Positions 623 through 56,393 of a stretch of 64,000 bases of DNA are shown here, piece by piece. Source of the DNA: Chitinophagaceae bacterium UBA7600 (GTDB taxonomy: Bacteria > Bacteroidota > Bacteroidia > Chitinophagales > Chitinophagaceae); contig DLKC01000020.1 in assembly GCA_002478885.1 (NCBI GenBank), forward strand, positions 8,444 to 72,443, in the 5' to 3' direction. Position numbers and translations under genes: made by a program. Under the pieces are notes generated by a model. The model ran no database searches, was not told the origin of the DNA, and saw nothing but the letters and a program-made list of their open reading frames with translations. The first letter of the stretch is position 1. Each line of letters begins with the position of its first letter.

Positions 623-689
623 ATGAACCCATCTTTCCAACATATATGCGGCTGCTGTTGCGTCGCACTCTTGTACGTTCCGTCCATTA
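623..689 (-). repeat. Interspersed intergenic element, copy 1 (TGCGACGCA core)
   Basis: The core is at 658–669 on the minus strand, followed by GTAC-type flank. It begins 42 nt after the WYL stop codon. Flanks contain CGGCTG and CAGCCG, a 6-bp complementary pair around the core. Outer boundaries are approximate. Confidence 0.85.
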
Positions 690-806
690 TTCAGCCGGCT
701 CATAGTGTGAAGCTTTCAGTAAAGAAAATTTTTGCTGCAAAAAATAACACTGACATAGGGTTGTCAGTTACTCTTGTTTGCTTTGTGGCATAAAATAAAA
801 AACGCC

Positions 807-1310
807 ATGACATTTACAGAATCATTTCTCGAAGAATTGGAAAGAGAAGCCGTTACTACCCGCAAAATGCTCGAAAGAGTGCCCGAAGACAAATTCGATT
901 GGAAGCCACATGAAAAAAGCATGAGCCTTAGGGCGCTTGCCAATCACGTGGCAGAAATTCCATCGTGGTATGGATTAATCCTTAACACGCCGGAACTCGA
1001 TTTTGCTGCTGGGGAATACCAGCCGCAGCCCATCACAAGCAGGGCCGAATTGCTCGTCTTTTTTGAAAAGAACCTTGCAGAAGCTAGAGAAAGCCTGGCA
1101 AAAGCAAATGATAGCATGCTCGAACCCACTTGGACGATGCGTAGCGGTGATACGATCTTCTTCACCGAACCAAAGTCCAAAGTGATGAGGGATTGTTTTT
1201 GCCAGGTGGTACACCACCGTGCACAACTGGGTGTTTACCTGCGATTGCTCAACATACCCATACCCGGCAGCTATGGACCCAGCGCAGATGATATGCAGGG
1301 ATTTGCATAA
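807..1310 (+). CDS. DinB-superfamily protein
   Basis: About 167 aa if translation starts at the ATG at 807; an in-frame TTG at 774 exists, but MTFTESFLEELEREA is the usual DinB beginning. The fold is a four-helix bundle that carries a metal site in many members. The expected histidines are visible: the H of LANHVAEIP, and the HH of CQVVHHRAQLGVYLR near the C-terminus. DinB proteins include bacillithiol-type S-transferases and damage-inducible proteins; the substrate here cannot be told. It follows a WYL regulator on the same strand, which may control it. A sequence of about 190 nt with an interspersed element separates the two genes, so they may not be co-transcribed. Confidence 0.85.
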   Translation: MTFTESFLEELEREAVTTRKMLERVPEDKFDWKPHEKSMSLRALANHVAEIPSWYGLILNTPELDFAAGEYQPQPITSRAELLVFFEKNLAEARESLAKANDSMLEPTWTMRSGDTIFFTEPKSKVMRDCFCQVVHHRAQLGVYLRLLNIPIPGSYGPSADDMQGFA

Positions 1311-1393
1311 CAATTTTGGAATAAATGCTAATCGGCTGGTAGCTTACCAGCCGATTGTATTTGCGCCAAAAAATTCCCAGGCCAGGGGGTGAT

Positions 1394-2377
1394 TTACATA
1401 TACCAAACATCCTCTGCTGCAAAACTTAGTTTTACCGTATCGCCAGCAAGAAAGCTGGTTTTGTTTACATATGCTTTTAGCAAATGCTGGCCAACCAACA
1501 CCTCTATGGCATAGTGATTACCGCGAAAAAAGACTCTGGTAATGGTTGCAACAGCCCCTTCGCCGGTTGCCGGCTGCAGCACCAGGTTTTCGGGCCTCAC
1601 CACCACCTTTTTTTCATTTACGGTAAGCTCCTTACAGGCTGCCTGTAGCCCAGGCGCTGCAATATCGATTATATTGTATGCGCCAAAAAGTCCTGCGCAA
1701 TACTCGCTTACCGGTCTCCTGTAAATTTCTTTCGCAGTACCGCGTTGAACTATCTCGCCGTCTTTCATAATAAAAATGGTGTCGGCCCAGGAAAGAATAT
1801 CCTCCGCATCGTGGGAGATCATCATACAGGTGATGCCCAGTTTTTCCGCCAGGCCGTGAATTACCTCTTTGATCACAGCCCTGTGCAGGCTATCGAGATT
1901 GGAGAACGGCTCGTCGAGCAGTAAGAGCTTTGGGGAAGTGATCAACAGTTTTGCCAGCGCTATGCGTTGTTTTTCGCCGCCAGAAAGTTGATCGGTTTTC
2001 CGGGCCAGTAAATGTTCAATCTGGCAAACTTTGTAAAGATTAAAGGCTTCATCGGCAGTGAGTTGATTAGCATAGTCAAGTATTTCGTGTACATAATAAT
2101 TATTGCGCAGTTCAAAATGTTGCGAGAGATATGCGATTGACCTGTGACCGGGCAATAACTTATCGAGTGGACCTGCTACTCTTTCGCCTGCTAACCTTAT
2201 TTCTCCGGCGTGAGGTTGCACGAGCCCGGCCAGCATTTTCATTAGAGATGTTTTACCTGAGCCTGTTTCACCGGCTATGGCAATCTGTTCAAAAGCCTGC
2301 TGGCTAAAACTTGTTGGCCTTACTGTGTAATTGCCCCCTTCCTTTCGGCTAATATTGTCGACCGTTAATAGTGCCAT
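1394..2377 (-). CDS. ABC transporter ATP-binding protein with C-terminal TOBE domain
   Basis: The nucleotide-binding domain is complete: Walker A GETGSGKTS near residue 36, signature LSGGEKQ, Walker B LLLLDEPF, D-loop SNLD and H-loop SHD. The last ~80 residues look like the TOBE regulatory domain of PotA/CysA/FbpC-type importers (VVVRPENLVL, then VEVLVGQHL-like strands). Start chosen at 2377 (MALLTVDN); an ATG six codons upstream is also open. Importer ATPases of this type normally sit with a permease and a binding protein, and neither is present here. It could serve a distant permease. Polyamine, sulfate, iron or molybdate would all be possible substrates; nothing in the sequence decides. 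Confidence 0.85.
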   Translation of the reverse strand: MALLTVDNISRKEGGNYTVRPTSFSQQAFEQIAIAGETGSGKTSLMKMLAGLVQPHAGEIRLAGERVAGPLDKLLPGHRSIAYLSQHFELRNNYYVHEILDYANQLTADEAFNLYKVCQIEHLLARKTDQLSGGEKQRIALAKLLITSPKLLLLDEPFSNLDSLHRAVIKEVIHGLAEKLGITCMMISHDAEDILSWADTIFIMKDGEIVQRGTAKEIYRRPVSEYCAGLFGAYNIIDIAAPGLQAACKELTVNEKKVVVRPENLVLQPATGEGAVATITRVFFRGNHYAIEVLVGQHLLKAYVNKTSFLAGDTVKLSFAAEDVWYM

Positions 2378-2488
2378 GCTGCGAAAATACTTCAAAGCCT
2401 ATTATTGCTGCGTGCATTTACGAATGGCGCCGGAACTGTGGCTGTAATGGGCGATAGTAAAGTCTTTGGTTAAGTCCGAATAGCCGAA

Positions 2489-3276: not shown

Positions 3277-3293
3277 AATGTTCGTGTATTACA

Positions 3294-5249: not shown

Positions 5250-5273
5250 CAAAACTTATCTGCAGAGACTTTT

Positions 5274-5340
5274 TGGGTGTCGGCATTTGCACTTCGTGGC
5301 ATCAACTCTTGCGTCGCACTCTTCAACTTAAGTGCTGCAT
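5274..5340 (-). repeat. Interspersed intergenic element, copy 3 (TGCGACGCA core)
   Basis: The core is at 5309–5320 on the minus strand, 48 nt beyond the serine hydrolase stop and upstream of its terminator. Flanks contain GCACTT and AAGTGC, a 6-bp complementary pair. Confidence 0.85.
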
Positions 5341-5367
5341 TCAACAAGAGCTGCAACGCCGTGAGTA

Positions 5368-6886: not shown

Positions 6887-6959
6887 GCCAACTTAGCTCA
6901 GCTGGTAGAGCATTTCATTCGTAATGAAAGGGTCGTCGGTTCGATTCCGATAGTTGGCT
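6887..6959 (+). tRNA. tRNA-Thr, anticodon CGT
   Basis: A 73-nt cloverleaf. The acceptor arms GCCAACT / AGTTGGC pair perfectly. The D arm is AGCTCAGCTGGTAGAGC. The anticodon stem TTTCA / TGAAA encloses loop TTCGTAA with anticodon CGT (reads ACG, Thr). The T arm is GTCGG-TTCGATT-CCGAT. The discriminator is T and CCA is not encoded. Confidence 0.96.
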
Positions 6960-9505: not shown

Positions 9506-12500
9506 ATGAAATCGATCCCCAATTACATAAAATGGCTACATAAGTATGCACGAAAAATGCTGCTTGTATTGTCGCTGATGGCATCAACAAGTAAAATTTT
9601 TGCACAACAGTCTCAGCAGCGATATAATGTAATTCTCATATCACTAGATGATATGAATGATAGAACGAGTTACCTCGGGTATCCTGCGGTGTTGACTCCA
9701 AATCTTCAAAGGTTAATAAATAAAGGAACTGCGTTTACCTCGGCATACTGCCAGTTCCCCTTGTGCAACCCCTCCCGTGTTTCAATGATGTCAGGATGGC
9801 GACCCGATAAAACGGGCGTATTCGGAAACAATATGGACCCAGCCGCTTATGTTCCCGCAAATGTGAAATACCTGCAGGATTATCTACATTCCTTTGGCTA
9901 TCGCACAGAGCGCTACGGCAAGATTTATCACGGGCAATTTGAATATGAATTTACCTGGGACTATGCAGAAGGCGGAAGTTCAAGCAACTTTGCAAAAAAT
10001 GCCGGCGAGCCTTTAACAAATTTTGATCCTGCTTCGTGGGGCATTTATCCAAAAAAAGATTCAGGGGGAGACTATACACTAGTTCAGGACCTCGTTGCAA
10101 GCCTGAAACAAAACCGTACGCAACCTGGTTTTTATGGGATTGGCTTAGGTGTACATAATCCTTTTACACCAAACCTCGCAAACTGGAATAAGTACGGTGA
10201 CCCCTCGGTTAAGGTAGACCTACCGTTTTGGCAGAGCACAACAACCGTTAAAGGAAATAGCGCAAGAACCATTCAAATACCAACCAACACGCCAGCAAAT
10301 GATAGAAACGATATACCGCAGGTGGCATTTTTTGCCAATAACACATTAGTACAGGCGGATTCAGAATGGAGAAAAACTGTGCAGGCATACTACGGCGAGG
10401 TTTCGACGATGGACCGCAACCTTGGTGTACTGCTTGATGAAATGGATCGCGACCATTTATGGGATAATACCGTAGTTGTTTTAATCAGTGATCACGGGCA
10501 GCACTTGGGTGAGCATAACGGATTATGGTTGAAGAATACGCTGTTTGAAGAATCCATCCATATTCCATTGGTGGTATATGCCCCCGGCAAACCAGCAGGT
10601 ATTTGCAACAAATTTGTTGAAGCGGTCGATATATATCCAACCATAACCGAGTTGTGCCGTGTTCCAACACCCGCTGATGTGGAAGGATCGAGTTTTGTAA
10701 GGCTTTTAGACGATCCAACACAAACGTGGAAAAAGGCTTCTTTTACACAAACTGCCCCCGGACCAGCATTTCCACTTGTTTCGAAGTGCGAGGCAATACG
10801 GACAGACAGGTATCATTATAATTACTGGGGCAGCTACGGAGAAGAACTCTACGACAGGCAAAACGATCCAAACGAATGGACAAATCTTGTAAATAATTCA
10901 AGTTACGCTTCTGTTTTAAATCAAATGCGAACCCTCAGGCAGCAAGGCTGGCAATCTTCAAAACCGCCTGCCTGTGACTCGGTGATTTATTATTTTGATA
11001 AAGATGGCGATGGTTATGGTACTGATGCAAAAACATTTAAAGGTTGCTATCAGCCCATTGGTTATGTAAGTCCAGGCGGCGATTGTGATGATAATAATAA
11101 CGCAATCAATCCCGGCGCAGCGGAAGTTTGTGATGGGATTGACAATAACTGTAACGGCCAAATAGATGAAGGCGTTCAAACAGCATTTTATAAAGACAAT
11201 GACAGTGACGGGTTCGGCGATATAAACAACAAGGTCTTCGCTTGCGCAAAACCGGCGGGCTTTGTTACCGACAGCACTGATTGCAACGATAATAACACTT
11301 TGATTAATCCGGCCGCAACAGAAGTTGCAGATGGAGTCGATAACAATTGTAACGGGGCGATTGATGAAAACCTTGTTCCTTTCTACCGTGACGAGGACAA
11401 TGACGGATATGGAGATATTAATCAAAAGACGTTTGGAAACAGCACCCCGCCTTCTGGTTATGTTCCTGACAGTACAGACTGCAACGATAACAATGCAGCT
11501 ATTTATCCGGGAGCACCTGAACTTTGCGATGGGATAGATAATAATTGTGATGGGGTAGTCGATGAAGGGTTCACACAGCAAACATGGTACAGGGATGCAG
11601 ATGGTGACGGCTTCGGAAGTCTGGACTCGTCCCTGCAATCATGTAATGCACCGGCCGGTTATGTGGCCGGAAACACCGATTGTGACGATCATAACGCATT
11701 CGTATATCCCGGCGCACCGGAAATCTGTGATGGCGTTGATAACAACTGCGACGGCGTTGTTGACGAAGGATTCGAAAAACAACAATGGTACAGAGATGCT
11801 GATGGGGATGGCTTCGGCGACGGTAACAACGCAACAATGTCTTGCAGTATACCTGCCGGTTATGTGGACAATAACACTGATTGCAATGACAATAATGCCA
11901 GCATTTACCCGGGCGCACCGGATATATGCGATGGCATCGACAATGATTGTGACGGCCAGGTTGATGAAGATGGCCAACTTATCTTCTATCGCGATGGCGA
12001 CAATGATGGTTATGGAAACCCAGCCGATTTTGTAAACGCCTGTACAAAACCCGATGGCTACGTTAGCAATAACACAGATTGTAACGACGACAACGCCACT
12101 GTATATCCCGGGGCACCAGAAATTTGCGATGGGTTTGATAATAATTGCAACGGCACGGTTGATGAGAACACCATTACTGCAACCATTGTGCAAACGGGCA
12201 CCGTTTCCGTTTGTATCGGTTCTTCAACAGTACTTACCGCAAACAGTCTTGCAAACACAAACTATAAATGGTTTAAAAATGGAGCTGTAATCGACGGAGC
12301 AAACACATCCTCTCTCACGGTAAATGCAGTCGGAAATTACAGTGTCGAAGAAACTCTTAACAGCCTGTGCAAAGACACATCCGACATAACCATTGTAGCA
12401 ACAACTCCTAAACCTAAGGCAACGATCACCGCACTCGGCAACCTTAATATTTGCGCCACCGGATCAGTAGTTTTGCAGGCCAACAGCGGAACAGGTTTAA

Positions 12501-12984: not shown

Positions 12985-13014
12985 ACTTTCCGGCTTAAAT
13001 TGCTGAATAAAATT

Positions 13015-13081
13015 ATGTTACGCGCCGACGTAACTCCGGTTAAGCATCGTTGCGTCGCACTCTTGTACTGTATCAATTGCA
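13015..13081 (-). repeat. Interspersed intergenic element, copy 4 (TGCGACGCA core)
   Basis: The core is at 13050–13061 on the minus strand with the GTAC flank. It lies beyond the sulfatase terminator, between that gene and the next plus-strand gene. Confidence 0.85.
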
Positions 13082-13225
13082 GCCTCAAACAGCGGAAAGC
13101 ATCCTTCATTACCATATTTTAGCACCTGCTTCATTTGGTTGTTCATTTATTATTGAAATACCAACCAGCACTTAGCCTTTCAATAGAATTATTTCTCATC
13201 TTGCGTGCAGACTTACACCAGTTTT

Positions 13226-15107: not shown

Positions 15108-15121
15108 ACAGATTGTTTAGT

Positions 15122-15188
15122 AATGTTACCTAAAGTACAAGTGAGTGACACAACTGGCGATGCCATTTGCACAAAAGCCGGCTAAAAA
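15122..15188 (+). repeat. Interspersed intergenic element, copy 5 (GTGACAC core)
   Basis: The core TGAGTGACACAA is at 15142–15153. It is 38 nt from the MoxR stop codon and lies inside the MoxR–DUF58 gap, so it is probably transcribed with the operon. The right arm (CTGGCGATGCCATTTGCAC) closely matches the copy at 36676. Confidence 0.85.
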
Positions 15189-15190
15189 AA

Positions 15191-16153
15191 TCAGCGCGGC
15201 ACTTCCACGCGTTTTGTAATTTCTTTAACCACATCTTCAGCATTGCTGCCTTCCATTTCCTTTTCCGGCGCAAGAATAATGCGATGGCAAAGCACCGGAT
15301 GCAACACGCGGATCACATCGTCCGGCGTAACAAAATCCCGGCCACTGATTGCCGCAATTGCTTTGGCAGCACGTAATACAGCCACAGAAGCACGGGGGCT
15401 CGCCCCGAGAAACAACGCTTTATTGTTGCGCGTTTCGTAAACCAGCGACGCTATATAGCGCATTACTTTTTCTTCAATATGCAGATTGCTCACCTGTTGC
15501 CTAAACCTGGCGATAGCTTCACCATTGAGCACTGCATGCACGGTTTCGTTGAAATGTGAGGTAATGCCATGATGTGCATTCTGCAGAATTTTTACTTCCT
15601 CATCGGGTGAGGGATACCGCACCTCTATTTTAAAAAGAAAACGGTCGAGCTGCGCTTCGGGCAAGCGGTAAGTACCTTCATGCTCCACCGGGTTTTGCGT
15701 GGCCAGCACCATAAAGGGTTGTGGCATGGCGTACGTAACACCATCATAGGTAACCTGTCGCTCTTCCATAACCTCAAATAAAGCAGCCTGTGTTTTTGCA
15801 GGGCTTCTGTTGATCTCATCAATCAGAACAATATTGCTGAATATGGGGCCTTGTTTAAAGCTAAAAGAAGCCGTTTGAGGATTGAATACCGAAGTGCCGA
15901 TTACATCACTTGGCATAAGGTCGGGAGTAAACTGAATTCGGCTGAAAGGCACATCGATACTGCGTGCCAGGAGTTTTGCCGTTAGCGTTTTGGCTACACC
16001 GGGCACACCTTCAATCAATACGTGGCCATCGGCAAGCATGGCAGCAATAAGCAATTCTACCATTTCTTCCTGTCCAACGATCACTTTCGCGATCTCGGTT
16101 TTTATTTTCTGAACAGCATCGTTCAATGCCCATAGTTCATTTGTCTCTTCCAT
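15191..16153 (-). CDS. MoxR-family AAA+ ATPase
   Basis: 320 aa, cytoplasmic. Walker A is GVPGVAKT (residues ~50–57), Walker B LIDEINR (~110–116), sensor 1 LATQNP and the arginine region RFLFKIEV. The C-terminal lid holds GASPRAS and a conserved FVTPDDV. MoxR ATPases act as chaperones for partner proteins with vWA or DUF58 domains; the DUF58 partner is next downstream. The gene starts 4 nt after the frameshifted DUF4350 gene, so it belongs to the same transcript. Confidence 0.95.
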   Translation of the reverse strand: MEETNELWALNDAVQKIKTEIAKVIVGQEEMVELLIAAMLADGHVLIEGVPGVAKTLTAKLLARSIDVPFSRIQFTPDLMPSDVIGTSVFNPQTASFSFKQGPIFSNIVLIDEINRSPAKTQAALFEVMEERQVTYDGVTYAMPQPFMVLATQNPVEHEGTYRLPEAQLDRFLFKIEVRYPSPDEEVKILQNAHHGITSHFNETVHAVLNGEAIARFRQQVSNLHIEEKVMRYIASLVYETRNNKALFLGASPRASVAVLRAAKAIAAISGRDFVTPDDVIRVLHPVLCHRIILAPEKEMEGSNAEDVVKEITKRVEVPR

Positions 16154-18046: not shown

Positions 18047-18063
18047 TAACTGATAAAATATTT

Positions 18064-18130
18064 TATGTACCCGGCACCGGCTTATGAATCATCTTCCATT
18101 GCGTCGCACTCTTGTGCGTTCACATCAATG
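18064..18130 (-). repeat. Interspersed intergenic element, copy 6 (TGCGACGCA core)
   Basis: The core is at 18099–18110 on the minus strand. It lies within the operon, between the membrane-protein gene at 18144 (34 nt away) and the DUF4129 gene. Flanks contain CCATTG and CAATGG, a 6-bp complementary pair. Confidence 0.85.
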
Positions 18131-18143
18131 GGCAGCACGCTTT

Positions 18144-20827: not shown

Positions 20828-20880
20828 ACATAAAGCCAACGATACAACCATTGTATTGAAGAATCGATAAACCTGCTCAA

Positions 20881-20947
20881 TAATGTTACTGCTGCTGAAG
20901 AGTGCGACGCAACAGGCGCCAAACAGCATTGAGTTGCCTGGCCCCAA
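20881..20947 (+). repeat. Interspersed intergenic element, copy 7 (TGCGACGCA core)
   Basis: The core is at 20901–20912. It lies between the convergent RDD and esterase genes, 50 nt from the esterase stop. CTCAAT and ATTGAG flank it as a 6-bp complementary pair. Confidence 0.87.
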
Positions 20948-20961
20948 AAAATAATCTCTTA

Positions 20962-23963: not shown

Positions 23964-23987
23964 ATCAGTATCCCCTTCACAAAATAT

Positions 23988-24054
23988 ATTGATACCGGCA
24001 GTAGTTTTTATAGCATCGTCTCTTGCGTCGCACTCTTCTCTTGTGCTTTACTGC
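23988..24054 (-). repeat. Interspersed intergenic element, copy 8 (TGCGACGCA core)
   Basis: The core is at 24023–24034 on the minus strand. GGCAGTA (23997–24003) and TACTGCC (24049–24055) form a 7-bp complementary pair around it. The element lies after the terminator and before the subtilase gene. Confidence 0.87.
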
Positions 24055-24214
24055 CAACCTCAACATTAAAACTGCGACATTGCAGCAAACACAGGCGGGT
24101 TGCGCTTGCTGTTGCTAACGGCAGGGCGGAGAAAAAAATACTTTCATTATCAGGATATTTTCTTCATATTCGCAACCGCTACATCAGCAACAAGATCGTC
24201 AAACAATCATCCTG

Positions 24215-27082: not shown

Positions 27083-27089
27083 CAATTTT

Positions 27090-27156
27090 TTGGGCCCGGC
27101 TTTCTAACATCTATTAAGTTTTACTTGCGTCGCACACTTTAGCGTCAAGCTCACTG
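27090..27156 (-). repeat. Interspersed intergenic element, copy 9 (TGCGACGCA core)
   Basis: The core at 27125–27136 (minus strand, TTGCGTCGCACA) starts 43 nt after the subtilase stop. The right arm includes TTTTTTGGGCCCGGCTTT just past that stop, the tail seen in many copies. Confidence 0.85.
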
Positions 27157-27193
27157 GTCAAAAAAACAGCACGAACGAAGCTGTTAATACAAG

Positions 27194-27862: not shown

Positions 27863-27906
27863 GAAGCAGTAGTTGATTTAGGTAGAAGGCCATGTTGACC
27901 TGCTGC

Positions 27907-27973
27907 GTAAAGATAAACAGTACAAGAGTGCGACGCAACAGTCGATGCTATTTTGTATGGTGCCGGGCTCAAA
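27907..27973 (+). repeat. Interspersed intergenic element, copy 10 (TGCGACGCA core)
   Basis: The core at 27927–27938 has the full TACAAG left flank and a GTGCCGGGCTCAAAATAAA tail. It lies between divergent genes, upstream of the propeller gene at 28035. Confidence 0.87.
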
Positions 27974-28034
27974 ATAAAAATGCGCCACGCGTATAAGATT
28001 GCATCAGTACTTTTGCGGCCACAAAAGCCGCCGC

Positions 28035-30432: not shown

Positions 30433-30522
30433 TTCTGTTGATTTGATCTTTAAATATATCATGAAATGTTTAAAGCTCTTTCACCTGGCAAGAAGCATAC
30501 ATGCAGCAATTAAAGCAGGATT

Positions 30523-30589
30523 TTTTTGAACGGGCTTTCGCCTGTAAATCGGCATTGTTGCGTCGCACTCTTGTACTTCAAAGCGCTAC
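30523..30589 (-). repeat. Interspersed intergenic element, copy 11 (TGCGACGCA core)
   Basis: The core is at 30558–30569 on the minus strand, 25 nt from the stop of the alpha/beta hydrolase gene. Its tail points to the GH5 start. The left flank is GAAGTACAAG. Confidence 0.87.
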
Positions 30590-30593
30590 GCCG

Positions 30594-31622
30594 TTACTTG
30601 TTTAGAAAGCTTCTTATTGTATTTAAATAAAGCTGTGGCTGCTCAACCTGAATAAAGTGCCCGGCTCCAGGTATTAATGCTAACTGGTGGTTTTTGAAAA
30701 GCTGGAGGTATTCATTTGTAAAGCCCCATGGCTGATTATCGCATTGACCTTTCATTACCAGAACGGGAATGTTTAGTTGTTGTATTTTGTTACGTACGTC
30801 TGCAGTTTTTTGCAGGCTGTTAAAAGTCATGAGTCCGGCGTAATAGCCATAACCTGCGTCTTGCCTCGGAATAGCCGCCGTGTCGCAAACAGTTGACCGG
30901 TTAACAAGAGCACTTTGATAAGTTACAAAATCATCCGCTTCTTTATCTGTCGCCAGTTTTTTTCCAAAGGATGAAGCAAAATATGCCATGCATTTTGTCC
31001 GGATGTTTGCAGACTCACTATTGCCTTCCGCATTTGTGTAGAATGGCTGTTTCAACTGAAAGCTGTCAGGCGCTTCTATGCTGCGTAAGGCAAGGTTTAC
31101 CGGGTAAATAGGCCCCGGGCTAGTGAAAATTATTTTGTGAACAAGTGTTGGGTTCTCCGCTGCGAACAACGCGGCCAGGATTGCTCCCCACGACTGGCCG
31201 ATTAGTATCACTTTTTCTGCGCCAATCTTTTTAATTATTTCCCGCAGGTCATTTATATGTCTTGAAACCGTGTATTGTTTTATGTCATCAAGCCGGTTTG
31301 AATAGCCGCTTCCAACCTGGTCGTAGAGATAAACATCATAACCATTTTGTGCAAGCGGTGCGAGTGTTTCAATATTTGATCCGGTAATATGGCCGCCTGG
31401 CCCTCCATGCAAATAAATAACAGGATAAAGCTTTTTGTTTAAATCTGCATGTATGATTGTGTAAGCAATATCAGACCCGGTTGGTAAAATCCAATGTGTT
31501 GTATCCACGCGGGTTGCTAATGCAGGGACGCCGTAACTCCGTGGATAAAATACTTTGAACAGGAGCAACAGCAATGTAAATATTGCGATGATTATGAGAG
31601 ACCGTAGGAAGTTTTTCTTCAT
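30594..31622 (-). CDS. Alpha/beta hydrolase, proline iminopeptidase-like, membrane anchored
   Basis: About 342 aa from the ATG at 31622; the frame is open further upstream, but that part runs into an interspersed element and the next gene. One N-terminal membrane helix (LRSLIIIAIFTLLLLLF) puts the enzyme in the periplasm. Motifs are HGGPGGH (oxyanion), GQSWG (nucleophile Ser), MKGQCDNQPWG (acid) and GAGHFIQVEQP (His), in the order of the S33 family. S33 enzymes are prolyl aminopeptidases, epoxide hydrolases or lactonases. The substrate is unknown. Confidence 0.87.
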   Translation of the reverse strand: MKKNFLRSLIIIAIFTLLLLLFKVFYPRSYGVPALATRVDTTHWILPTGSDIAYTIIHADLNKKLYPVIYLHGGPGGHITGSNIETLAPLAQNGYDVYLYDQVGSGYSNRLDDIKQYTVSRHINDLREIIKKIGAEKVILIGQSWGAILAALFAAENPTLVHKIIFTSPGPIYPVNLALRSIEAPDSFQLKQPFYTNAEGNSESANIRTKCMAYFASSFGKKLATDKEADDFVTYQSALVNRSTVCDTAAIPRQDAGYGYYAGLMTFNSLQKTADVRNKIQQLNIPVLVMKGQCDNQPWGFTNEYLQLFKNHQLALIPGAGHFIQVEQPQLYLNTIRSFLNK

Positions 31623-31647
31623 GTGAGTTACTGTATTTTTTTGCCGA

Positions 31648-31714
31648 CCAGGGCTATACAGTAAACGAGTGCGACGCAAGTAAAGTATAATAGCAGCAGC
31701 GAAGCTGGGTATAA
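31648..31714 (+). repeat. Interspersed intergenic element, copy 12 (TGCGACGCA core)
   Basis: The core is at 31668–31679, 38 nt from the quinoprotein stop. TATAC / GTATA flank it (5 bp, could be chance). Confidence 0.85.
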
Positions 31715-31716
31715 AA

Positions 31717-33909
31717 TTATTTTTCTCCAGGTAACGCAAATGCCAGGTATGCGTCGCTGGCTTTTGTTCCAAGTTTACCGCCACCACATGCAATAACGAG
31801 GTATTGTTTACCATTTAATTCATACATAGCCGGTGTTGCAAAACCAGGAGCAGGCAGTTTATATTCCCACAATAATTTGCCGTTAGTTTTATTAAAGCCG
31901 CGGATTTTGCCGTCTCTTGTGGCCGCTATAAACACAACACCGCCGGCTGTAACGACAGGGCCACCATAATTTTCGGTACCAGTTCGCGGTATTCCCTTCG
32001 CGGTTAATTCTTCGTACTCACCCAACACGGTTTTCCAGACGAGTTCGCCGGTGTTGAGGTCAATTGCATTTAACGTTCCCCATGGCGGAATTATAGCGGG
32101 GTAGCCTTCAGGTGTAAGGAATTTTGTGTAGCCGGTCATTTTATACGGCATGATGTTGATACTGTCGATTTTTACAACTGGCGGTATGAATTGCTTTTGT
32201 TGCTCGTTCTTCAGATCAAGTACAAAACTGGCGATTGCTTTCTTTTCTTCATCTGCAAGTCGGTTGAATGCCGGCATCATCCTCCTGCCGCTGTTGATTA
32301 ATGAAACAAACTGCTCTTCATTGTATTTTTTATTTACATCGATAAGTGTTGGCGTGTTGCCCCTGCCCTTTTTATCATCGCCGTGACAAGTCATACAGGT
32401 TTGCATATATATTCGCTGCCCTGCCTGCAGATAGTTTTCATTTTTGGGTAATTCCGGCTTATTATCGACCATTTGTTGCACATTAACCATTTCGTTGGCA
32501 TTGATATACATTATTCCTGTTGCAGGATCGAATGCAGGGCCGCCCCATTCGGCGCCACCATCGTAGCCGGGGAAAACAAGCGTGGGTGTTTTACCCGGTG
32601 GTATATTCATTTTGCCGTAACGGTAACCTTTCATAAGTGCTTGTATCTTTTTCCTTGAGCTATCAGGCATGTAAGGATTAATATCATCTGCAGTCAGCGT
32701 TTGTCTTACAAACGGTGCCGGCCTTACAGGTATTGGTTGAGTTGGCCATACTTGTTCACCGGCGAGCTCACTCACGGTGTCGGCTGGCACTTCGTTAATT
32801 TCAAAAACAGGTTTCCCCGTTTCTCTTTCAAACACATAGACCATCCCGTTTTTTGTGGGCTGTGCAACGGCATCGATCTTTTTCCCGTCTTTGTTTATCG
32901 TGACAAGCGCAGGCGGCGTTGGAAGATCTTTATCCCAAAGATCATGATGCATAAACTGGAAATGCCAGATGCGTTTGCCTGTTGCCGCATCAATCGCGAT
33001 TAGGCAATTGGCAAAAAGGTTGGCACCTTTTCTTTTGCCACCATAAAAATCATACGCCGCGGAGCCAGTAGCGGCAAACAATATTCCCCGTCTTTCGTCG
33101 AGTGAAAAACCGCTCCATGGATTAGCGCCACCGAGGTATTTATAAGCAGTTGTATCCTGCCATGTATCGAAACCATACTCGCCCGGCTGAGGAATTGTGT
33201 GAAAGATCCATTTCAATTTGCCGGTACGTACATCATAGGCTCTTATGTGACCTGGAGCCGAAGGCGGCGCTTCATCTACCCTTGCTCCAATGATCAAAAG
33301 ATCTTTGTAAATTATTCCAGGTGAAGTAGCGACAACAAAAAGGTCATGTACATCGCGGCCGAGATCGTTGTGCAAATCTATATAGCCACTGTCAGCAAAA
33401 CTGCTGATTGGCTTGCCTGTGTTTGCATCAATGGCATAGGTGTTGGAACCTGCAGTAAAGAAAATACGTTTGTCATCTTTTCCATCTGTCCAGTATGCCA
33501 CACCACGGCTATTGATCATGATATGGAAGGCGAAACGGTTGGCATCAAAATCTGTTTTTGCATTCGCATCAAAAACCCATTTTTCCTTCCCTGTCGCGGC
33601 ATCGATGGCAAACAATTTCATCTGCGGGCCAACGCCGTACAATATACCATCGACCATTATCGGATTGCATTGTATCTGCGAATGATTTACGGTGTCTGCA
33701 TCGCCAGTATGATAAGCCCATGCTACGGTTAGTTCGTATACATTGTTTGTGTCAATCTGCGTAAGCGATGAATAGCGGATCATGTCTTTTGAACCGCCAT
33801 AGTTGGGCCAGCCGGTATATGCGTTTTGTTGGTTGCTGTTACAAGCCGCCAGAGCGACCAGCCAAAACGCAAAAAATATAATGCGGTAACCAGTTATCTT
33901 ATTTGTCAT
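31717..33909 (-). CDS. PQQ-dependent dehydrogenase with inserted cytochrome c domain (lipoprotein)
   Basis: 730 aa. An SPII signal (FWLVALAAC) predicts a lipid-anchored periplasmic enzyme. Propeller repeats of the quinoprotein family include GWPNYGGSKDMIRYSSLTQID, AIDAATGKEKWVFDA, LIIGARVDEAPPSAPGHIRAYDVRTG and FAATGSAAYDFYGG. A cytochrome c domain with CMTCH (heme site, residue ~504) is inserted between about residues 488 and 575, before the last blades (PPWGTLNAIDLNTGELVWKT). It should oxidise a sugar or alcohol and pass electrons through heme c to the respiratory chain. With the propeller protein at 28035 it makes two putative PQQ enzymes within 6 kb. Confidence 0.9.
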   Translation of the reverse strand: MTNKITGYRIIFFAFWLVALAACNSNQQNAYTGWPNYGGSKDMIRYSSLTQIDTNNVYELTVAWAYHTGDADTVNHSQIQCNPIMVDGILYGVGPQMKLFAIDAATGKEKWVFDANAKTDFDANRFAFHIMINSRGVAYWTDGKDDKRIFFTAGSNTYAIDANTGKPISSFADSGYIDLHNDLGRDVHDLFVVATSPGIIYKDLLIIGARVDEAPPSAPGHIRAYDVRTGKLKWIFHTIPQPGEYGFDTWQDTTAYKYLGGANPWSGFSLDERRGILFAATGSAAYDFYGGKRKGANLFANCLIAIDAATGKRIWHFQFMHHDLWDKDLPTPPALVTINKDGKKIDAVAQPTKNGMVYVFERETGKPVFEINEVPADTVSELAGEQVWPTQPIPVRPAPFVRQTLTADDINPYMPDSSRKKIQALMKGYRYGKMNIPPGKTPTLVFPGYDGGAEWGGPAFDPATGIMYINANEMVNVQQMVDNKPELPKNENYLQAGQRIYMQTCMTCHGDDKKGRGNTPTLIDVNKKYNEEQFVSLINSGRRMMPAFNRLADEEKKAIASFVLDLKNEQQKQFIPPVVKIDSINIMPYKMTGYTKFLTPEGYPAIIPPWGTLNAIDLNTGELVWKTVLGEYEELTAKGIPRTGTENYGGPVVTAGGVVFIAATRDGKIRGFNKTNGKLLWEYKLPAPGFATPAMYELNGKQYLVIACGGGKLGTKASDAYLAFALPGEK

Positions 33910-35558: not shown

Positions 35559-35645
35559 ATGAGAGATTTTATTTTTTGCAAACATCGTAGCGCAGGTAAG
35601 TTACAGCAGGAAGTTTGTACAATGCGGGTATGCAATAAAATATTT

Positions 35646-35712
35646 TATGGCACCTGCTTAGCACATGTATTGGGCTTTACTTGCGTCGCACTATTCAACG
35701 CTTTTATCACTG
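35646..35712 (-). repeat. Interspersed intergenic element, copy 13 (TGCGACGCA core)
   Basis: The core is at 35681–35692 on the minus strand. It faces the copy at 35778 head to head, with 97 nt between the core starts. The left flank is reduced to GTTGAAT. GCACA / TGTGC are complementary arms (5 bp). Confidence 0.85.
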
Positions 35713-35757
35713 TGCGACAAAAATGTTTATTTCGTCAAAACTATTTTTTTGGCCTGG

Positions 35758-35824
35758 CCGAACTCCTGCTGCTGAAGAGTGCGACGCAACCAAAGCAGCC
35801 ACGATTACAGTAGCCCGGTACATA
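35758..35824 (+). repeat. Interspersed intergenic element, copy 14 (TGCGACGCA core)
   Basis: The core is at 35778–35789 with left flank GCTGCTGAAG and tail AGCCCGGTACATAAAAA. It is paired with the copy at 35681. Confidence 0.87.
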
Positions 35825-35825
35825 A

Positions 35826-35850
35826 AAAGACCCGCTGACGACAGGTCTTT
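35826..35850 (-). terminator. Probable terminator of the DUF1801 gene
   Basis: AAAGACC (35826–35832) / GGTCTTT (35844–35850), 11-nt loop. On the minus strand it runs into TTTTTAT. It is about 145 nt beyond the DUF1801 stop codon, which is rather far. Confidence 0.55.
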
Positions 35851-36376: not shown

Positions 36377-36464
36377 CGTTAGTACTTTTAGAAACAAAGT
36401 TTTTTGAGTAGTGCCGTTTAACTACATTAATCCCATTGGAGCCGAAACTACACAGCCTATTTTT

Positions 36465-36531
36465 TTGTTCCCAACACCTGTATTTCAATTAAGCTTTAGT
36501 TGCGTCGCACTCTTTTACGTTGAAAACAACA
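36465..36531 (-). repeat. Interspersed intergenic element, copy 15 (TGCGACGCA core)
   Basis: The core is at 36500–36511 on the minus strand. TTTCAA / TTGAAA flank it (6 bp complementary). It is upstream of the DUF1801 gene. Confidence 0.85.
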
Positions 36532-36655
36532 TTGAGCAAAAAAGTTCAAGTTCGACTAAGAACATGGTGCTGTGATGTTTCATTTGTAACGTTTCCATTT
36601 AGCAATGGCCAGAAACAAAATGATAACCGCGATTACGCATTTTTATTTTGCCGAT

Positions 36656-36722
36656 CAAAAAACCGAGCCCTGAAGTGAGTGACACAACCGGCTATGCCAA
36701 TTGCACTAAAGCCGATGCCATG
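36656..36722 (+). repeat. Interspersed intergenic element, copy 16 (GTGACAC core)
   Basis: The core TGAGTGACACAA is at 36676–36687, 38 nt from the stop of the GH109-like gene. The right arm (CCGGCTATGCCAATTGCAC) is nearly that of the copy at 15142. Confidence 0.87.
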
Positions 36723-36724
36723 AA

Positions 36725-38128
36725 TCACTTCATCACTTTTGTGTTTCCGCCTTTCTGCATCGATATATCTACGGGCGCATTGGTCTTCCAGGATCCATTA
36801 GTGAAATCTGGCACATCAATCGAGTTCGAACGATTGGCCACAGACCACTCGCTAAGCGGCGCAATGGAACTCCACAAGGCAGCGTCGTACACATCTATGT
36901 CGAGCGGCAGTCCATTACGAAGGCAATCAATGGTACGCCAGTCCATCAAGAAATCCATGCCTCCATGCCCACCAACCTGTTTCGCCATCTCTCCTATTTT
37001 TTTTACGATCGGTGGCTGGTATTGATCCTGCAGTTTTTTAAATTCTTCATCGCTTAACCATCCTTCATGACTTAAAGCAATCTTTGGTGGGTCGGGATAT
37101 TTTAACGCAGAACCTTTGGTGCCGCTGATCTTATGTATACGCGAATAAACATTGGGCGATGTAACATCGTGCTGAAGCATAATAGTGCGGCCAAGCGCAG
37201 TTTTGATAACGGTCGTGTTCATATTGCCGCGATATTTCTTGCCTGCATATGGCTTATAAAAATCATCTTTTGCAGCAAGATCATTTGCCATTGCGGCCAT
37301 TTGAAAATCGTTACCAGACATAGATGTGAGGTAATCCATTTTATCGCCGCGGTTAATACTCATTGCCTGCGCAACAGGACCAAGTCCATGCGTTGGATAC
37401 AAATTTCCGTTGCGCATATTTTCTTTCAGCCGCCACATATCGGAATAAGTGGTCTTGGAAAAATTGCTATCGATCAGCGTGTGAATATAGGCGCCTTCTC
37501 CATGCACGATCTCACCAAACAATCCCTGCCTGTTCATATTAAGCGTAAGCAGTTCGAAAAAGTCGTAGCAACAATTCTCAAGAATCATACAATGCCTGCG
37601 GGTCTTTTCACTCGTTTCCACCAACTGCCAGCATTCATCAATTGTTTTGGCGGCCGGCACTTCAACGCAGGCATGTTTGCCATGCTGCATCGCGTAAACA
37701 GCCATGGGCGCGTGCAGGCTCCACGGTGTAGCAATGTAAATAAGATCTATATCGTCGCGTTCACACATTTTCTTCCATGCGTCTTCGCTGCTTGTGTACA
37801 GGTCTGGACTGTGGGTGGTTCCTTCAAGTTTCTTTTTCATCGCATTCACCTTGTCGGGTTGCTTATCGCAAAGGCCTTTTATTTGCACGCCTTCAATAAT
37901 GCTCATTCTTTCTACAGCTGCAGGCCCGCGATTACCAAGCCCTATAAAACCGATACGAACGTTATCAAGTTTTGGCGCCGCATAGCCACTCATGTTGAAC
38001 TTTTGCGATTGCGTATTTATCACCTGCGTTGTGGGTCGCATAGCATAAGACCCAGCCATACCGGCACCAGCAATACCGATGCCGGTAAGCCCTGACACCT
38101 TCAGAAAATTTCTGCGATTTTGTTTCAT
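36725..38128 (-). CDS. Gfo/Idh/MocA-family oxidoreductase, GH109-like (secreted by Tat)
   Basis: About 467 aa from the ATG at 38128 (MKQNRRNFLKVSGLTGIGIAG, twin-arginine signal). A Rossmann fold follows (VRIGFIGLGNRGPAAVERM), then IATPWSLHAPMAVYAMQHGKHACVEVPAAKTIDECWQLV. The block MILENCCYDFFELLTLNMNRQGLFGEIVHGEGAYIH is characteristic of GH109 alpha-N-acetylgalactosaminidases, which use tightly bound NAD. Tat export is expected because the cofactor is loaded in the cytoplasm. The likely substrate is an N-acetylhexosamine glycoside, but GH109 members differ and some are simple dehydrogenases. Confidence 0.85.
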   Translation of the reverse strand: MKQNRRNFLKVSGLTGIGIAGAGMAGSYAMRPTTQVINTQSQKFNMSGYAAPKLDNVRIGFIGLGNRGPAAVERMSIIEGVQIKGLCDKQPDKVNAMKKKLEGTTHSPDLYTSSEDAWKKMCERDDIDLIYIATPWSLHAPMAVYAMQHGKHACVEVPAAKTIDECWQLVETSEKTRRHCMILENCCYDFFELLTLNMNRQGLFGEIVHGEGAYIHTLIDSNFSKTTYSDMWRLKENMRNGNLYPTHGLGPVAQAMSINRGDKMDYLTSMSGNDFQMAAMANDLAAKDDFYKPYAGKKYRGNMNTTVIKTALGRTIMLQHDVTSPNVYSRIHKISGTKGSALKYPDPPKIALSHEGWLSDEEFKKLQDQYQPPIVKKIGEMAKQVGGHGGMDFLMDWRTIDCLRNGLPLDIDVYDAALWSSIAPLSEWSVANRSNSIDVPDFTNGSWKTNAPVDISMQKGGNTKVMK

Positions 38129-38157
38129 GATTTTATTTTTAACTATTTGAACTTTTT

Positions 38158-38224
38158 TTGAGCCAGGCTTCATGGCAACTATTGGGCTTTTCTTGCGTCG
38201 CACCCTTGTACGTCATAACGCCAC
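38158..38224 (-). repeat. Interspersed intergenic element, copy 17 (TGCGACGCA core)
   Basis: The core at 38193–38204 on the minus strand reads TTGCGTCGCACC, one base off the consensus. It is 53 nt from the stop of the gene at 38257. Its tail (TTTTTTTGAGCC) points to the GH109-like gene's start. Confidence 0.85.
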
Positions 38225-38256
38225 GCACCAAAGCTTCTTCTTTTTTGTTTATTCAC

Positions 38257-40817: not shown

Positions 40818-40838
40818 TGATTTGCTTTATTTGCTGAG

Positions 40839-40905
40839 TAATGTTGAAAGCGAACAAGTGAGTGACACAAGGGACGCTGATCAATGCGATTAAGCCCGCT
40901 TCAAG
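40839..40905 (+). repeat. Interspersed intergenic element, copy 18 (GTGACAC core)
   Basis: The core TGAGTGACACAA is at 40859–40870, 39 nt from the FAH-family stop. TTGAAAGCG and CGCTTCAA flank it (8 bp complementary with one bulge). Confidence 0.87.
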
Positions 40906-40908
40906 ATC

Positions 40909-43017: not shown

Positions 43018-43040
43018 GTGCTTGATACGTTAGATTTTTT

Positions 43041-43107
43041 TTGTTTGCCAGCATTTGTTTTTCATAGCGGCTTCGTTGTGTCACTCACTTCAAGGTTCCG
43101 ATCGCAA
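43041..43107 (-). repeat. Interspersed intergenic element, copy 19 (GTGACAC core)
   Basis: The core is at 43076–43087 on the minus strand, the only minus-strand copy of this core type. It faces the copy at 43176, with 100 nt between core starts. Complementary flanks ATTTG / CAAAT (5 bp). Confidence 0.85.
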
Positions 43108-43155
43108 ATCATTAACAGCGAACTGTAAAACCGGTTATACAAAAGGCGTGTTGAA

Positions 43156-43222
43156 TAAAGCCGCGAAAGCCGAAGAGTGCGACGCAAGCGAAGCCACATT
43201 TTTATTCAAAAGCCCGGAACAT
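43156..43222 (+). repeat. Interspersed intergenic element, copy 20 (TGCGACGCA core)
   Basis: The core is at 43176–43187, 44 nt from the aldehyde dehydrogenase stop. TTGAATAAA (43151–43159) and TTTATTCAA (43201–43209) form the best arm pairing of any copy (9 bp). Confidence 0.9.
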
Positions 43223-43230
43223 AAAGAACT

Positions 43231-47022: not shown

Positions 47023-47125
47023 AAAATCGGGTTATTACTGAACAACAATCAGGCTATGAAAATAACTAAAGCTACTCAAACATTTGAGCAATGATGCAAA
47101 CGATTGTTTTGAACGGAGAAAATAT

Positions 47126-47192
47126 TTATGGGCCGGGCAGTATGGCAGGTGGCGGCTTTGTTGCGTCGCACACTTGTACTTCCTCATCTACG
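47126..47192 (-). repeat. Interspersed intergenic element, copy 21 (TGCGACGCA core)
   Basis: The core is at 47161–47172 on the minus strand (TTGCGTCGCACA). It is paired with the GTGACAC-type copy at 47218, and the core starts are 57 nt apart. Neither is near a stop codon. Confidence 0.87.
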
Positions 47193-47197
47193 CCCAG

Positions 47198-47264
47198 CAA
47201 AGAACAAAGCGTACAAGTGAGTGACACAACGATGCTCATAACAGCACCTTCAGCCCGTCACCAA
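47198..47264 (+). repeat. Interspersed intergenic element, copy 22 (GTGACAC core)
   Basis: The core TGAGTGACACAA is at 47218–47229 with the full GTACAAG left flank. It is head to head with the copy at 47161, which carries the other core type. Confidence 0.87.
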
Positions 47265-47369
47265 AAACTTACCGAAAAATAAATGCAGGTTTATTAACTG
47301 CGCATCGAAAGCATTTGATTGTTATCTTTCCGTTATTGAAAACCGTTTAGACAGGAACGAACCAACAAA

Positions 47370-49718: not shown

Positions 49719-50058
49719 TCTTTATAGCCCGGGCAGAAGAACAGGCATTATGCTATACTGCGCTTGCCCCGAAAGGGCCGATCAGGGGCTGCACACTTCA
49801 ACTTCTGCAACACGGTGGGCCGTTTTGCAAACCCGGCTGACGGTTCAAAAGCCGGGAAAATCATTTTTGCCCACCCGTGAGGCGAACGCACAAGTGAGTG
49901 ACACAACAAAAGCTGAAGCCCGGAACGAAAGCCAGTAAAACAATTTTATTCTTTAAACCAGCAGCAGGTAAAAAGCATTTAATAAATTTGAGCACAGTCT
50001 AAAAGACTTTAGCAATTTATAACAGCGCTTTTCTAATTAACATCTGTCAAAAGCAAAT
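49719..50058. other. Gene-free region with one element
   Basis: No credible ORF; apparent short frames have no coding character. It holds the GTGACAC-type element with core at 49895. The last ~100 nt before the next gene are AT-rich and presumably include its promoter. Confidence 0.55.
49875..49941 (+). repeat. Interspersed intergenic element, copy 23 (GTGACAC core)
   Basis: The core TGAGTGACACAA is at 49895–49906 with CGCACAAG on the left and AAGCCCGGAAC in the right arm. It is 177 nt from the kinase stop, farther than most copies. Confidence 0.85.
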
Positions 50059-55151: not shown

Positions 55152-55180
55152 TTTTTCAAAAAATCACGCATACGAGTGCC

Positions 55181-56320
55181 ATGAGAGCTAAAACGATTAA
55201 AACCACATCTACCGAAGAATTTCAATCTGCTTTGCAAGAATCAATGGATGATGGATTTAAGCCAACGCTCGCCATCGCATTTGTTTCAAAAAGCCAGGAC
55301 AGGAAAGCCATTACAGCAATACTAAGCCAGCATGATATTGCCGTTTTCGGTTGCACCACCAACGGCGAATTTATCAGCGAGGATCTCCAAAAAGGTTCTG
55401 CAGCCATTTTATTGCTTGACATGAAAAAAGAATATTTCGATATTTATTTTCATGAATTCACCGAACCCAATTACCGGGAGGCGGCGAGAAATATTGCCAA
55501 AAAGGCCAAAGACAAATTTGCAGTGCCGGCTTTTTTAATCGGTGTCAGCAATTATGAAACTGATGGCGAAGAAATTTTGCATGGTATAGAAGATGTGGCC
55601 GGAATGAACGTAAACGCTTGTGGTGGCGGTGCCGGCGATGATTATGCGTTTACTGATAATTACGTTTTTACCAATGGAAGAGATAACGGCAAAGCCATTC
55701 TTTGCCTTGCACTTGACGAAACTAAAATAGAAATCAAAGGCATTGCCACCTGCGGATGGAAAGCGGTGGGCACGGTAAGAACTGTAACCAAAAGTTCAGG
55801 CAACCATGTGTACACCGCAGATGATGTTCCTGTGCTAGACCTCACGATAAAATATGGCGGGCTTGAAAATGTAACACCCGACAACCAGAACACCCTCATA
55901 GAAATTGCTGCCAATTTCCCCCTGCAACTACAAAGGGAAAAAGGCGACCCCGTTATGCGGCCGGGACTTATGATAGACTGGAGCGACCGCTCCTATTACA
56001 CCAGTGGCAGCGTGCCGCAGGGTTCAAAAGTGCGGTTCTCCCTTCCGCCCGATTGGGATGTAATGGAAAAGGTTGTAAATTCAGCAACCCACCTGAAAGA
56101 AACGGAAATGCCTGAGGCCGATGCGGTGGTCGTGTTTAGCTGTGCAGGCAGAATCCTGGCACTCGGGCCCTTAATGGCAGAAGAGATTGAAGGCATAGGA
56201 AAGGTATGGAACGTGCCAATGGCCGGCATGTTTTCCAATTCAGAACTTGGAAGGGCAACAGGTGGTAACCTGGAAATGCATAATATTACAACCTGTGTAG
56301 TTGCATTAAAAGAAAAATAG
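55181..56320 (+). CDS. FIST-domain sensory protein
   Basis: 379 aa, cytoplasmic. FIST_N features: TLAIAFVSKSQDR, IAVFGCTTNGEFIS, FLIGVSNYETDGEEILHGIEDV and the Gly-rich NACGGGAGDDYAFTDNYVF. FIST_C features: GSVPQGSKVRFSLPPDWDVME, DAVVVFSCAGRILALG and MAGMFSNSELGRATGGNLEMHNITTCVVAL. FIST domains usually sense amino acids or other small ligands and are often fused to signalling domains. Here the protein stands alone, 29 nt after the propeller kinase, so it is probably co-transcribed and may modulate that kinase. An element follows 42 nt after the stop. Confidence 0.92.
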   Translation: MRAKTIKTTSTEEFQSALQESMDDGFKPTLAIAFVSKSQDRKAITAILSQHDIAVFGCTTNGEFISEDLQKGSAAILLLDMKKEYFDIYFHEFTEPNYREAARNIAKKAKDKFAVPAFLIGVSNYETDGEEILHGIEDVAGMNVNACGGGAGDDYAFTDNYVFTNGRDNGKAILCLALDETKIEIKGIATCGWKAVGTVRTVTKSSGNHVYTADDVPVLDLTIKYGGLENVTPDNQNTLIEIAANFPLQLQREKGDPVMRPGLMIDWSDRSYYTSGSVPQGSKVRFSLPPDWDVMEKVVNSATHLKETEMPEADAVVVFSCAGRILALGPLMAEEIEGIGKVWNVPMAGMFSNSELGRATGGNLEMHNITTCVVALKEK

Positions 56321-56326
56321 TAGTTT

Positions 56327-56393
56327 GTGTACCCGGCAGCAGTGCTGTAGTTAAGCTGCTGTTGCGTCGCACTCTTCAGCCGCAGCAAGACAT
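56327..56393 (-). repeat. Interspersed intergenic element, copy 24 (TGCGACGCA core)
   Basis: The core is at 56362–56373 on the minus strand, starting 42 nt after the FIST stop. The tail (TTTGTGTACCCGGCAGC) begins right at that stop. Left flank GCTGCGGCTGAAG. Confidence 0.88.

Follow-up and report, generated by a model that had tools for sequence, protein, structure and literature searches.

Chi sites are short oligomers that are oriented, occur once every few kilobases and lie mostly inside genes. Uptake signal sequences (USS) of the Pasteurellaceae and DNA uptake sequences (DUS) of the Neisseriaceae are other repeated signals of bacterial genomes, and USS in Haemophilus are described as evenly spaced in PMC1939737, which cites Karlin et al. 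Both kinds of signal invite comparison with an element that recurs in a 64,000-nucleotide stretch of Chitinophagaceae bacterium UBA7600 (GCA_002478885.1, contig DLKC01000020.1, positions 8,444 to 72,443), referred to below as the window. Like Chi, the element is oriented and found every few kilobases; unlike Chi, it is a 75-bp intergenic site. With USS and DUS it shares a copy number of the order of 2000 per genome, presence on both strands, restriction to a family, a near-invariant core with degenerate flanks, some intergenic inverted pairs and the reported even spacing, but it is about 75 bp long instead of a short core, lies about 98% outside genes and shows an orientation-dependent avoidance between copies. 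Repetitive extragenic palindromes (REP), bacterial interspersed mosaic elements (BIME) and REP doublets forming hairpins (REPIN), which occur with a REP-associated tyrosine transposase (RAYT, or TnpA-REP), resemble it in being intergenic and numerous, with a palindromic core and close inverted pairs, but the element has no predicted stem-loop, few near-identical copies and no Y1_Tnp match in the densest complete genome searched. Miniature inverted-repeat transposable elements (MITEs) and Correia-like elements also have inverted arms and a variable spacer, but here high-identity copies were few in the samples, single arms are common and positions are kept across species. On the evidence set out below, the element is probably a directional, host-maintained double-stranded DNA site.

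Copies were identified with an iteratively built profile based on 457 kb of the 5.47-Mb genome to which the window belongs (G000; the window and 20 stretches from the five contigs heading the hit list), with genes predicted by our own dicodon caller and in-gene status judged by the midpoint of each copy. Parts of four further genomes were read: 400 kb in evenly spaced stretches of G163, a complete genome from a different genus; stretches of its congener G081 picked by orthology; and stretches of G125 and of the sparse genome G004 picked around hits. The profile gave 24 matches in the window, and none of the 24 midpoints fell in a predicted gene in DNA that is 88% coding, in agreement with the at least 24 intergenic copies claimed by a preliminary description of the window. 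That description had assigned 18 copies to the core AGTGCGACGCAA, allowing one change, and six to TGAGTGACACAA. The first core was found at 19 places with one change allowed, of which one, at 10785 (AGTGCGAGGCAA), lies in a gene between flanks unrelated to the element, leaving 18, and the second occurs exactly six times. With up to two mismatches, AGTGCGACGCAA matched 20 times in the window against 5.5 expected, a count reached by none of 100 shuffles, and TGAGTGACACAA matched 8 times, which 6 of 100 shuffles also reached and which alone is not significant. Both orientations are represented, as had been stated, with 20 of the 23 consecutive window copies opposite to each other, and the length measured, about 75 bp, falls within the 65–90 bp first estimated.

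The intergenic enrichment, whose verification beyond the window had been proposed, held in the larger samples. The 457 kb of G000 contained 197 profile copies, 4 of them in genes (about one per 2.3 kb), and the 400 kb of G163 contained 204, 1 of them inside a gene. No profile match at E<=0.1 was obtained in the reversed DNA of either sample or in 80 named loci from other bacteria (1.15 Mb), which gave one match at 0.3. The whole of G000 holds 594 exact matches to the core AGTGCGACGCAA, 303 on the forward and 291 on the reverse strand, and a single match to the reversed pattern, a great excess of a short core on both strands of the kind that marks USS and DUS; in G163, GYGACRCAAC had 2287 matches compared with 31 for the control. 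Copies were carried by 149 of the 257 intergenic gaps of at least 60 bp in the G000 sample: 102 of the 178 between codirectional genes, 24 of the 33 between convergent genes and 23 of the 46 between divergent ones. The preliminary description had recognised no known family, and a search of the window against Rfam at gathering thresholds likewise matched nothing but a tRNA gene at 6887-6959; at E<=5, three 20-kb stretches yielded one weak match (E 2.1).

Written from its left end with the tail last, the consensus reads TGCTSAnTAnnG..., GTACAAG or GCTGAAG, the core, CAACnnnGnnG... and GCCGGGnnCAAAAAA. The relatedness of the flanks claimed earlier was borne out, the alternative of TACAAG and GCTGAAG being a two-base covariation (AC or TG). 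The two main core types, AGTGCGACGCAA (first base also T or G) and TGAGTGACACAA, differ in a pair of compensating bases around GYGACRC, an odd-centred palindrome; the pair is C-G or T-A in 194 of 196 copies. In G000, 86 of the 94 copies with an identified left block had 29-30 bp between it and the core centre, and 104 of 120 had 31-32 bp between the core centre and the tail, each distance corresponding to about three helical turns. Covariation outside the core, examined in the G000 copies, was limited to near neighbours with none at long range, and RNAalifold predicted 0 pairs from 70 sequences; in place of the 20-40 bp stem-loop palindrome of REP, the core offers no more than an odd-centred DNA palindrome of 7-9 bp. 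Copies whose tails face a start codon and those facing a stop codon have much the same profile, though they would be complementary if transcribed; the smallest p values for a difference (0.001 among 73 columns in G000, 0.006 among 66 in G163) are weak after multiple testing. A structured RNA, one of the options first offered, is disfavoured by the lack of predicted pairs and by the likeness of these two profiles. Rigid spacing together with the absence of predicted RNA pairing suggests a double-stranded DNA object that would be contacted at three places, and we infer that a protein binds it as duplex with contacts about three helical turns apart. Of the options first offered, a DNA binding site (nucleoid or regulator) fits best; the rigid three-block geometry and the strand-specific even spacing are two features of it that were not visible in the preliminary description. 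Single-base indels at profile columns 14, 43 and 57 led us to reject protein coding.

The arrangement of copies along the chromosome is strongly ordered. Neighbours were of opposite orientation in 170 of 184 cases in G163, 143 of 176 in G000, 48 of 54 in G081 and 31 of 40 in G125, and among non-close neighbours alternation was seen in 118 of 131, 104 of 137, 42 of 48 and 28 of 36, respectively; transitions from single copy to single copy in G163 comprised 59 alternating and 3 same. Observed values were compared with 1000 simulations per genome of random placement in the same gaps, for which copies with midpoints in genes had been dropped (4 of 197, 1 of 204, 1 of 63 and 1 of 51). The coefficient of variation (CV) of same-orientation spacing was 0.39 in G163 compared with 0.71 at random, 0.53 compared with 0.77 in G000, 0.29 compared with 0.68 in G081 and 0.34 compared with 0.67 in G125, lower than in all simulations for each, so that the even spacing attributed to USS and DUS is present, per orientation, in four genomes. 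When in-gene copies were kept, the CV in G000 was 0.48. Same-orientation spacings of less than 1.5 kb numbered 6 of 163 in G163 (about 38 expected) and 4 in G000 (about 33 expected), and avoidance extended to distances below about 2 kb.

The alternating fraction exceeded all simulations in G163, G000 and G081. When one strand was shifted against the other, alternation was 0.82 in G163 (0.92 observed), 0.75 in G000 (0.81 observed) and 0.83 in G081 (0.89 observed, within the null), from which it appears that neighbours alternate mainly because same-orientation copies avoid each other. Restricting the analysis to copies of at least 38 bits lowered alternation to 77 of 114 in G163 and 52 of 80 in G000 (CV 0.53 and 0.55), because copies are dropped. 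Intervals bracketed by a plus and then a minus copy span 0.6-7.3 kb, with one exception in G163, and have a median of about 2.5 kb; all 69 in G000 and 80 of 81 in G163 contain genes. Genes on the same strand were not significantly enriched within these brackets (34 of 51 compared with a null of 30, and 32 of 49 compared with 28; p 0.15 each), leaving their interpretation as transcription units unsupported. An RNA panhandle between bracket partners was rejected, as the similarity of partners was close to that of random pairs (z +2.2 in G000, -2.1 in G163). The most regular stretch seen was L135 (G163:C1:275001-295000), in which eight predicted genes on one strand are accompanied by 16 strictly alternating copies, with close pairs about every 2.6 kb.

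Relative to genes, tails facing a stop codon lie a median of 7 nt from it in G000 (102 cases) and 12 nt in G163 (111 cases), and tails facing a start codon lie a median of 72 and 67 nt away; the latter class makes up 86 of 188 copies in G000 and 89 of 200 in G163. Orientation within codirectional gaps is weakly tied to gene direction, with a slight antisense excess (73 vs 55, 77 vs 65, 20 vs 18 and 20 vs 8). Close pairs almost always have their tails outward, as seen in all 39 pairs up to 300 bp apart in the G000 sample and in 49 of 51 within 150 bp in that of G163. Single copies are also common. In G163 only 12 of 48 close pairs had two cores of the same class (26.5 expected), which suggests that perfect palindromes are avoided; G081 had 1 of 7 (3.7 expected), and G000, at 18 of 33 (21 expected), showed no clear effect. 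Close pairs in G163, for example L149:13708, L149:17729, L148:7028 and L150:14021, have spacers that contain imperfect inverted repeats of their own, and such pairs match one another over arms and spacer at 76-84% identity.

Among the G000 copies the columns of the profile are close to independent, the median nearest-neighbour identity being 0.718 (185 of 197 copies measurable) compared with 0.690 after column shuffling. A neighbour of at least 0.9 identity was found for 0 of 185 copies in G000, 0 of 178 in G163, 0 of 51 in G081, 2 of 42 in G125 and 0 of 34 in G004, so the many near-identical copies typical of REP with RAYT are lacking in all five. Core positions are near invariant and the remainder of the element is saturated. 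Between G163 and G081, whose long matches are 69-80% identical, the same end of the same gene carried the element in both for 22 of the 31 copies testable in G163 and 22 of the 24 testable in G081, and identity at variable columns was 0.51 for shared copies (21 pairs) compared with 0.44 for random pairs. Shared gene ends with a slight excess of identity are the pattern expected of long-kept sites, and the sites are apparently kept by selection. Seven orthologous junctions aligned for target-site duplications and empty sites were too diverged to define ends, and the one stretch of the element-poor G003 searched for empty sites was also too diverged.

Gene order is heavily rearranged between these two congeners (L137, L142 and L145 compared with L154-L162), with G163-side breaks at element-bearing gaps: in our reading of three 20-kb stretches of G163, 8 of 8 synteny breaks fell at element-bearing junctions, which made up 23 of 49 junctions. 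These breaks prompted the idea that bracketed genes move as cassettes. Of the 13 block ends that we read in G081, however, only 8 fell at elements, and the idea is further weakened because larger gaps carry both breaks and elements and because G004 has single copies without partners. Replicative local inversion was also unsupported, since the two genes in a G163-only bracket keep their orientation in G081 (one case).

The observations call for a process that works on DNA in one direction, with little regard for transcription, and that needs one site every few kilobases per strand. Uptake signals are the closest known comparison in number, degenerate flanks, inverted pairs and even spacing, and that the element works as a DNA uptake or exchange signal is the leading reading, held only tentatively, as possible and short of probable. 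A protein complex would bind the 75-base oriented site as double-stranded DNA, and the site would act as a directional signal of self DNA, in uptake or in another directional step of exchange or repair, such as a recombination signal, with the DNA on the tail side predicted to be the part handled. Each strand would need one signal about every 4 kb, a second one nearby in the same orientation adding nothing. Its means of spread would be point mutation and biased exchange, and these would account for the rarity of near-identical copies, the one-family range and the existence of some congeners without it. Members of other families of Bacteroidota provide some precedent: one is described as naturally transformable (PMC8459023), and Riemerella columbina is reported to prefer its own DNA in transformation competition (PMC7965970). 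A broader and more doubtful proposal is a strand-specific ruler, in which a lineage of Bacteroidota would carry an intergenic 75-bp directional signal about every 4 kb per strand, read one-sidedly by some machine; it would be either the first uptake or exchange signal of the phylum, with directional import, or the first oriented domain-boundary code in bacteria. Thousands of 75-base sites in one genome, as extrapolated from the sample, represent an unusually large unexplained investment, and strand-specific even spacing points to a directional process on DNA. Should the uptake reading be true, it would supply a self-DNA code for a phylum in which our literature searches found none described and would make testable why uptake signals are evenly spaced.

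Several observations weigh against an uptake or exchange signal. According to PMC1939737, uptake in Haemophilus influenzae is independent of USS orientation, whereas avoidance here is limited to copies of the same orientation; uptake sequences are less even than compaction would require; and known USS and DUS are short and partly genic (65% and 35%). The element, by comparison, is about 75 bp long with 4 of 197 and 1 of 204 copies inside genes, far from a large genic share, and because of these differences in length, genic share and orientation it is not classed as a USS. Alternation was absent from the sparse G004 (8 of 15 non-close neighbours) and, at 0.795, was inside the random-placement range of 0.487-0.846 in G125. 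Outside G000, copies were more alike than after column shuffling, with medians of 0.770 vs 0.721 in G163, 0.788 vs 0.700 in G081, 0.819 vs 0.744 in G125 and 0.779 vs 0.731 in G004; part of this excess arises because the shuffle breaks the link within core types, and some local copying is possible. Codon nativeness did not clearly follow the density of copies, whether compared by stretch (p 0.17 and 0.13) or by gene (p 0.40 and 0.05), ComEC was present in 11 of 11 genomes searched, element-poor ones included, and so does not discriminate, and no protein that binds the element was found.

The MITE- or REP-like family first suggested is disfavoured: an old repeat, spread by a transposase as an inverted pair and since decayed to arms, appears unlikely. 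It would explain the tail-outward close pairs, the excess likeness of copies in four of the five genomes and the finding that two copies in the G163 stretch L142, at about 10.4 and 14.2 kb, resemble many places in G081, with identities of up to 96-100% across some 30-50 bp surrounding the core. The search for a RAYT or other transposase elsewhere, which had been recommended, showed three Y1_Tnp genes in G000, a point in its favour, but the link is weakened in that none has a core within 1 kb, the nearest being about 1.06 kb away (two core types, <=2 mismatches); G163, with its thousands of core matches, has no Y1_Tnp match, and in neither genome is a cognate RAYT flanked by the repeat. Further, no hairpin is predicted, near-identical full copies are rare in five genomes, a near-invariant core in a saturated remainder is retained at orthologous positions between species, and insertions would not be expected to keep apart according to orientation. 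The spacing could be set, whatever the element does, by selection against deletions between direct repeats, and the avoidance is indeed strongest below 1.5 kb, but this is improbable, as close same-orientation neighbours show no preference for unlike cores (same class in 13 of 18 within 2.2 kb in G163, 9.9 expected, and in 11 of 16 in G000, 10.2 expected) and share exact stretches of only about 20 bp.

Besides the old repeat, the other main rival to the uptake reading, itself rather unlikely, is a chromosome-organising site, oriented and protein-bound, at which two inward-facing copies would delimit a small domain of one to four genes of any orientation and serve as a boundary or loop anchor; if true, it would mean an oriented boundary code in bacteria. 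The alternation of neighbours, the gene-holding brackets and the weak tie to gene direction are what it would produce. However, alternation mostly follows from even spacing on each strand, as the phase-shifted null shows, bracket partners are matched neither in sequence nor in core class, and absence or near absence from the congeners G003 and G126 would be odd for a chromosome-wide structural system. That the element terminates transcription or otherwise serves mRNA 3' ends is most improbable, though the short distances of tails from stop codons and the slight antisense excess might speak for it. Candidate terminator hairpins lie near some copies, but a simple scan of G163 placed them at 23 of the 66 3' ends that have a single antisense copy and, at much the same rate, at 22 of the 75 that have none, and they overlapped the element at only 4 3' ends in G163 and 4 in G000. 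The element itself lacks the conserved hairpin, followed by a U-tract, of an intrinsic terminator, its orientation is only weakly tied to gene direction, and nearly half of its copies have tails that face a start codon, their profile being much the same.

Among the genomes sampled, the element is confined to one family, save for one incomplete genome. Of 59 genomes searched, 18 (G000 among them) contain the exact core; all 18 belong to the same family, and several have only one to three copies. A sequence-only model, with 32 candidates scored per genome, matched 90 of the 147 genomes of the family, again counting G000, with a patchy distribution inside genera, the contrasts between congeners being 0 in G003 vs 32 in G125, 1 in G126 vs 32 in G004 and 0 in G006 vs 32 in G128. 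A class-wide sample gave matches in 5 of 295 genomes, four from the same family and one from outside it that is 71% complete and has 3 matches; this last genome carries a close pair at G413:C129:4201-4406, for which contamination or transfer is possible. Plasmid and phage records queried with one copy of the element gave no match, and the 18-bp core pattern is present in 13 stretches of viral-labelled contigs (L217-L229). The G163 stretch of lowest density, L144 (G163:C1:2750001-2770000), has 2 copies compared with a mean of about 10 per 20 kb, and scanning 10 of its 16 genes identified a DNA methylase, an HSDR_N protein and a SusCD locus, as would be expected if recently acquired DNA lacks the signal; L144 is perhaps such acquired DNA. 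Literature searches, exact motifs included, found no description of the element among the papers listed, as judged largely by title.

Table 1. Copies of the element in the window, with profile scores
Position	Strand	Core	Score (bits)	Remarks
619..696	-	AGTGCGACGCAA	42.8	tail 2 nt from stop codon
2482..2558	+	TGTGCGACGCAA	31.8	
5270..5346	-	AGTGCGACGCAA	38.3	
13011..13088	-	AGTGCGACGCAA	28.7	
15114..15191	+	TGAGTGACACAA	43.9	tail abuts stop codon of MoxR-like AAA gene 15191-16153
18061..18137	-	AGTGCGACGCAA	49.6	
20874..20950	+	AGTGCGACGCAA	44.6	
23985..24061	-	AGTGCGACGCAA	34.5	
27086..27163	-	TGTGCGACGCAA	39.5	
27901..27976	+	AGTGCGACGCAA	52.1	
30521..30595	-	AGTGCGACGCAA	39.7	
31642..31718	+	AGTGCGACGCAA	26.0	
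35643..35719	-	AGTGCGACGCAA	30.2	left arm of close head-to-head pair with 35751..35827
35751..35827	+	AGTGCGACGCAA	42.0	right arm of close head-to-head pair with 35643..35719
36461..36538	-	AGTGCGACGCAA	43.5	left arm of close head-to-head pair with 36649..36725
36649..36725	+	TGAGTGACACAA	29.2	right arm of close head-to-head pair with 36461..36538
38154..38230	-	GGTGCGACGCAA	43.3	
40832..40908	+	TGAGTGACACAA	39.8	
43038..43114	-	TGAGTGACACAA	30.4	left arm of close head-to-head pair with 43149..43226
43149..43226	+	AGTGCGACGCAA	42.9	right arm of close head-to-head pair with 43038..43114
47124..47199	-	TGTGCGACGCAA	43.8	left arm of overlapping head-to-head pair with 47191..47267 (palindromic left block in common)
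47191..47267	+	TGAGTGACACAA	32.9	right arm of overlapping head-to-head pair with 47124..47199
49868..49945	+	TGAGTGACACAA	31.3	
56323..56399	-	AGTGCGACGCAA	42.6	tail 2 nt from stop codon

A search of genome contigs with the MoxR-like protein encoded next to one of these copies gave no close relative, and the named relatives with the best scores belong to the Bacteroidota. At three places in the wider samples (L041:6016-, L046:17046- and L032:19109-), the core is split by a short hairpin like TGCCGGCTTATCCGGCA, apparently a different repeat inserted in the palindrome.

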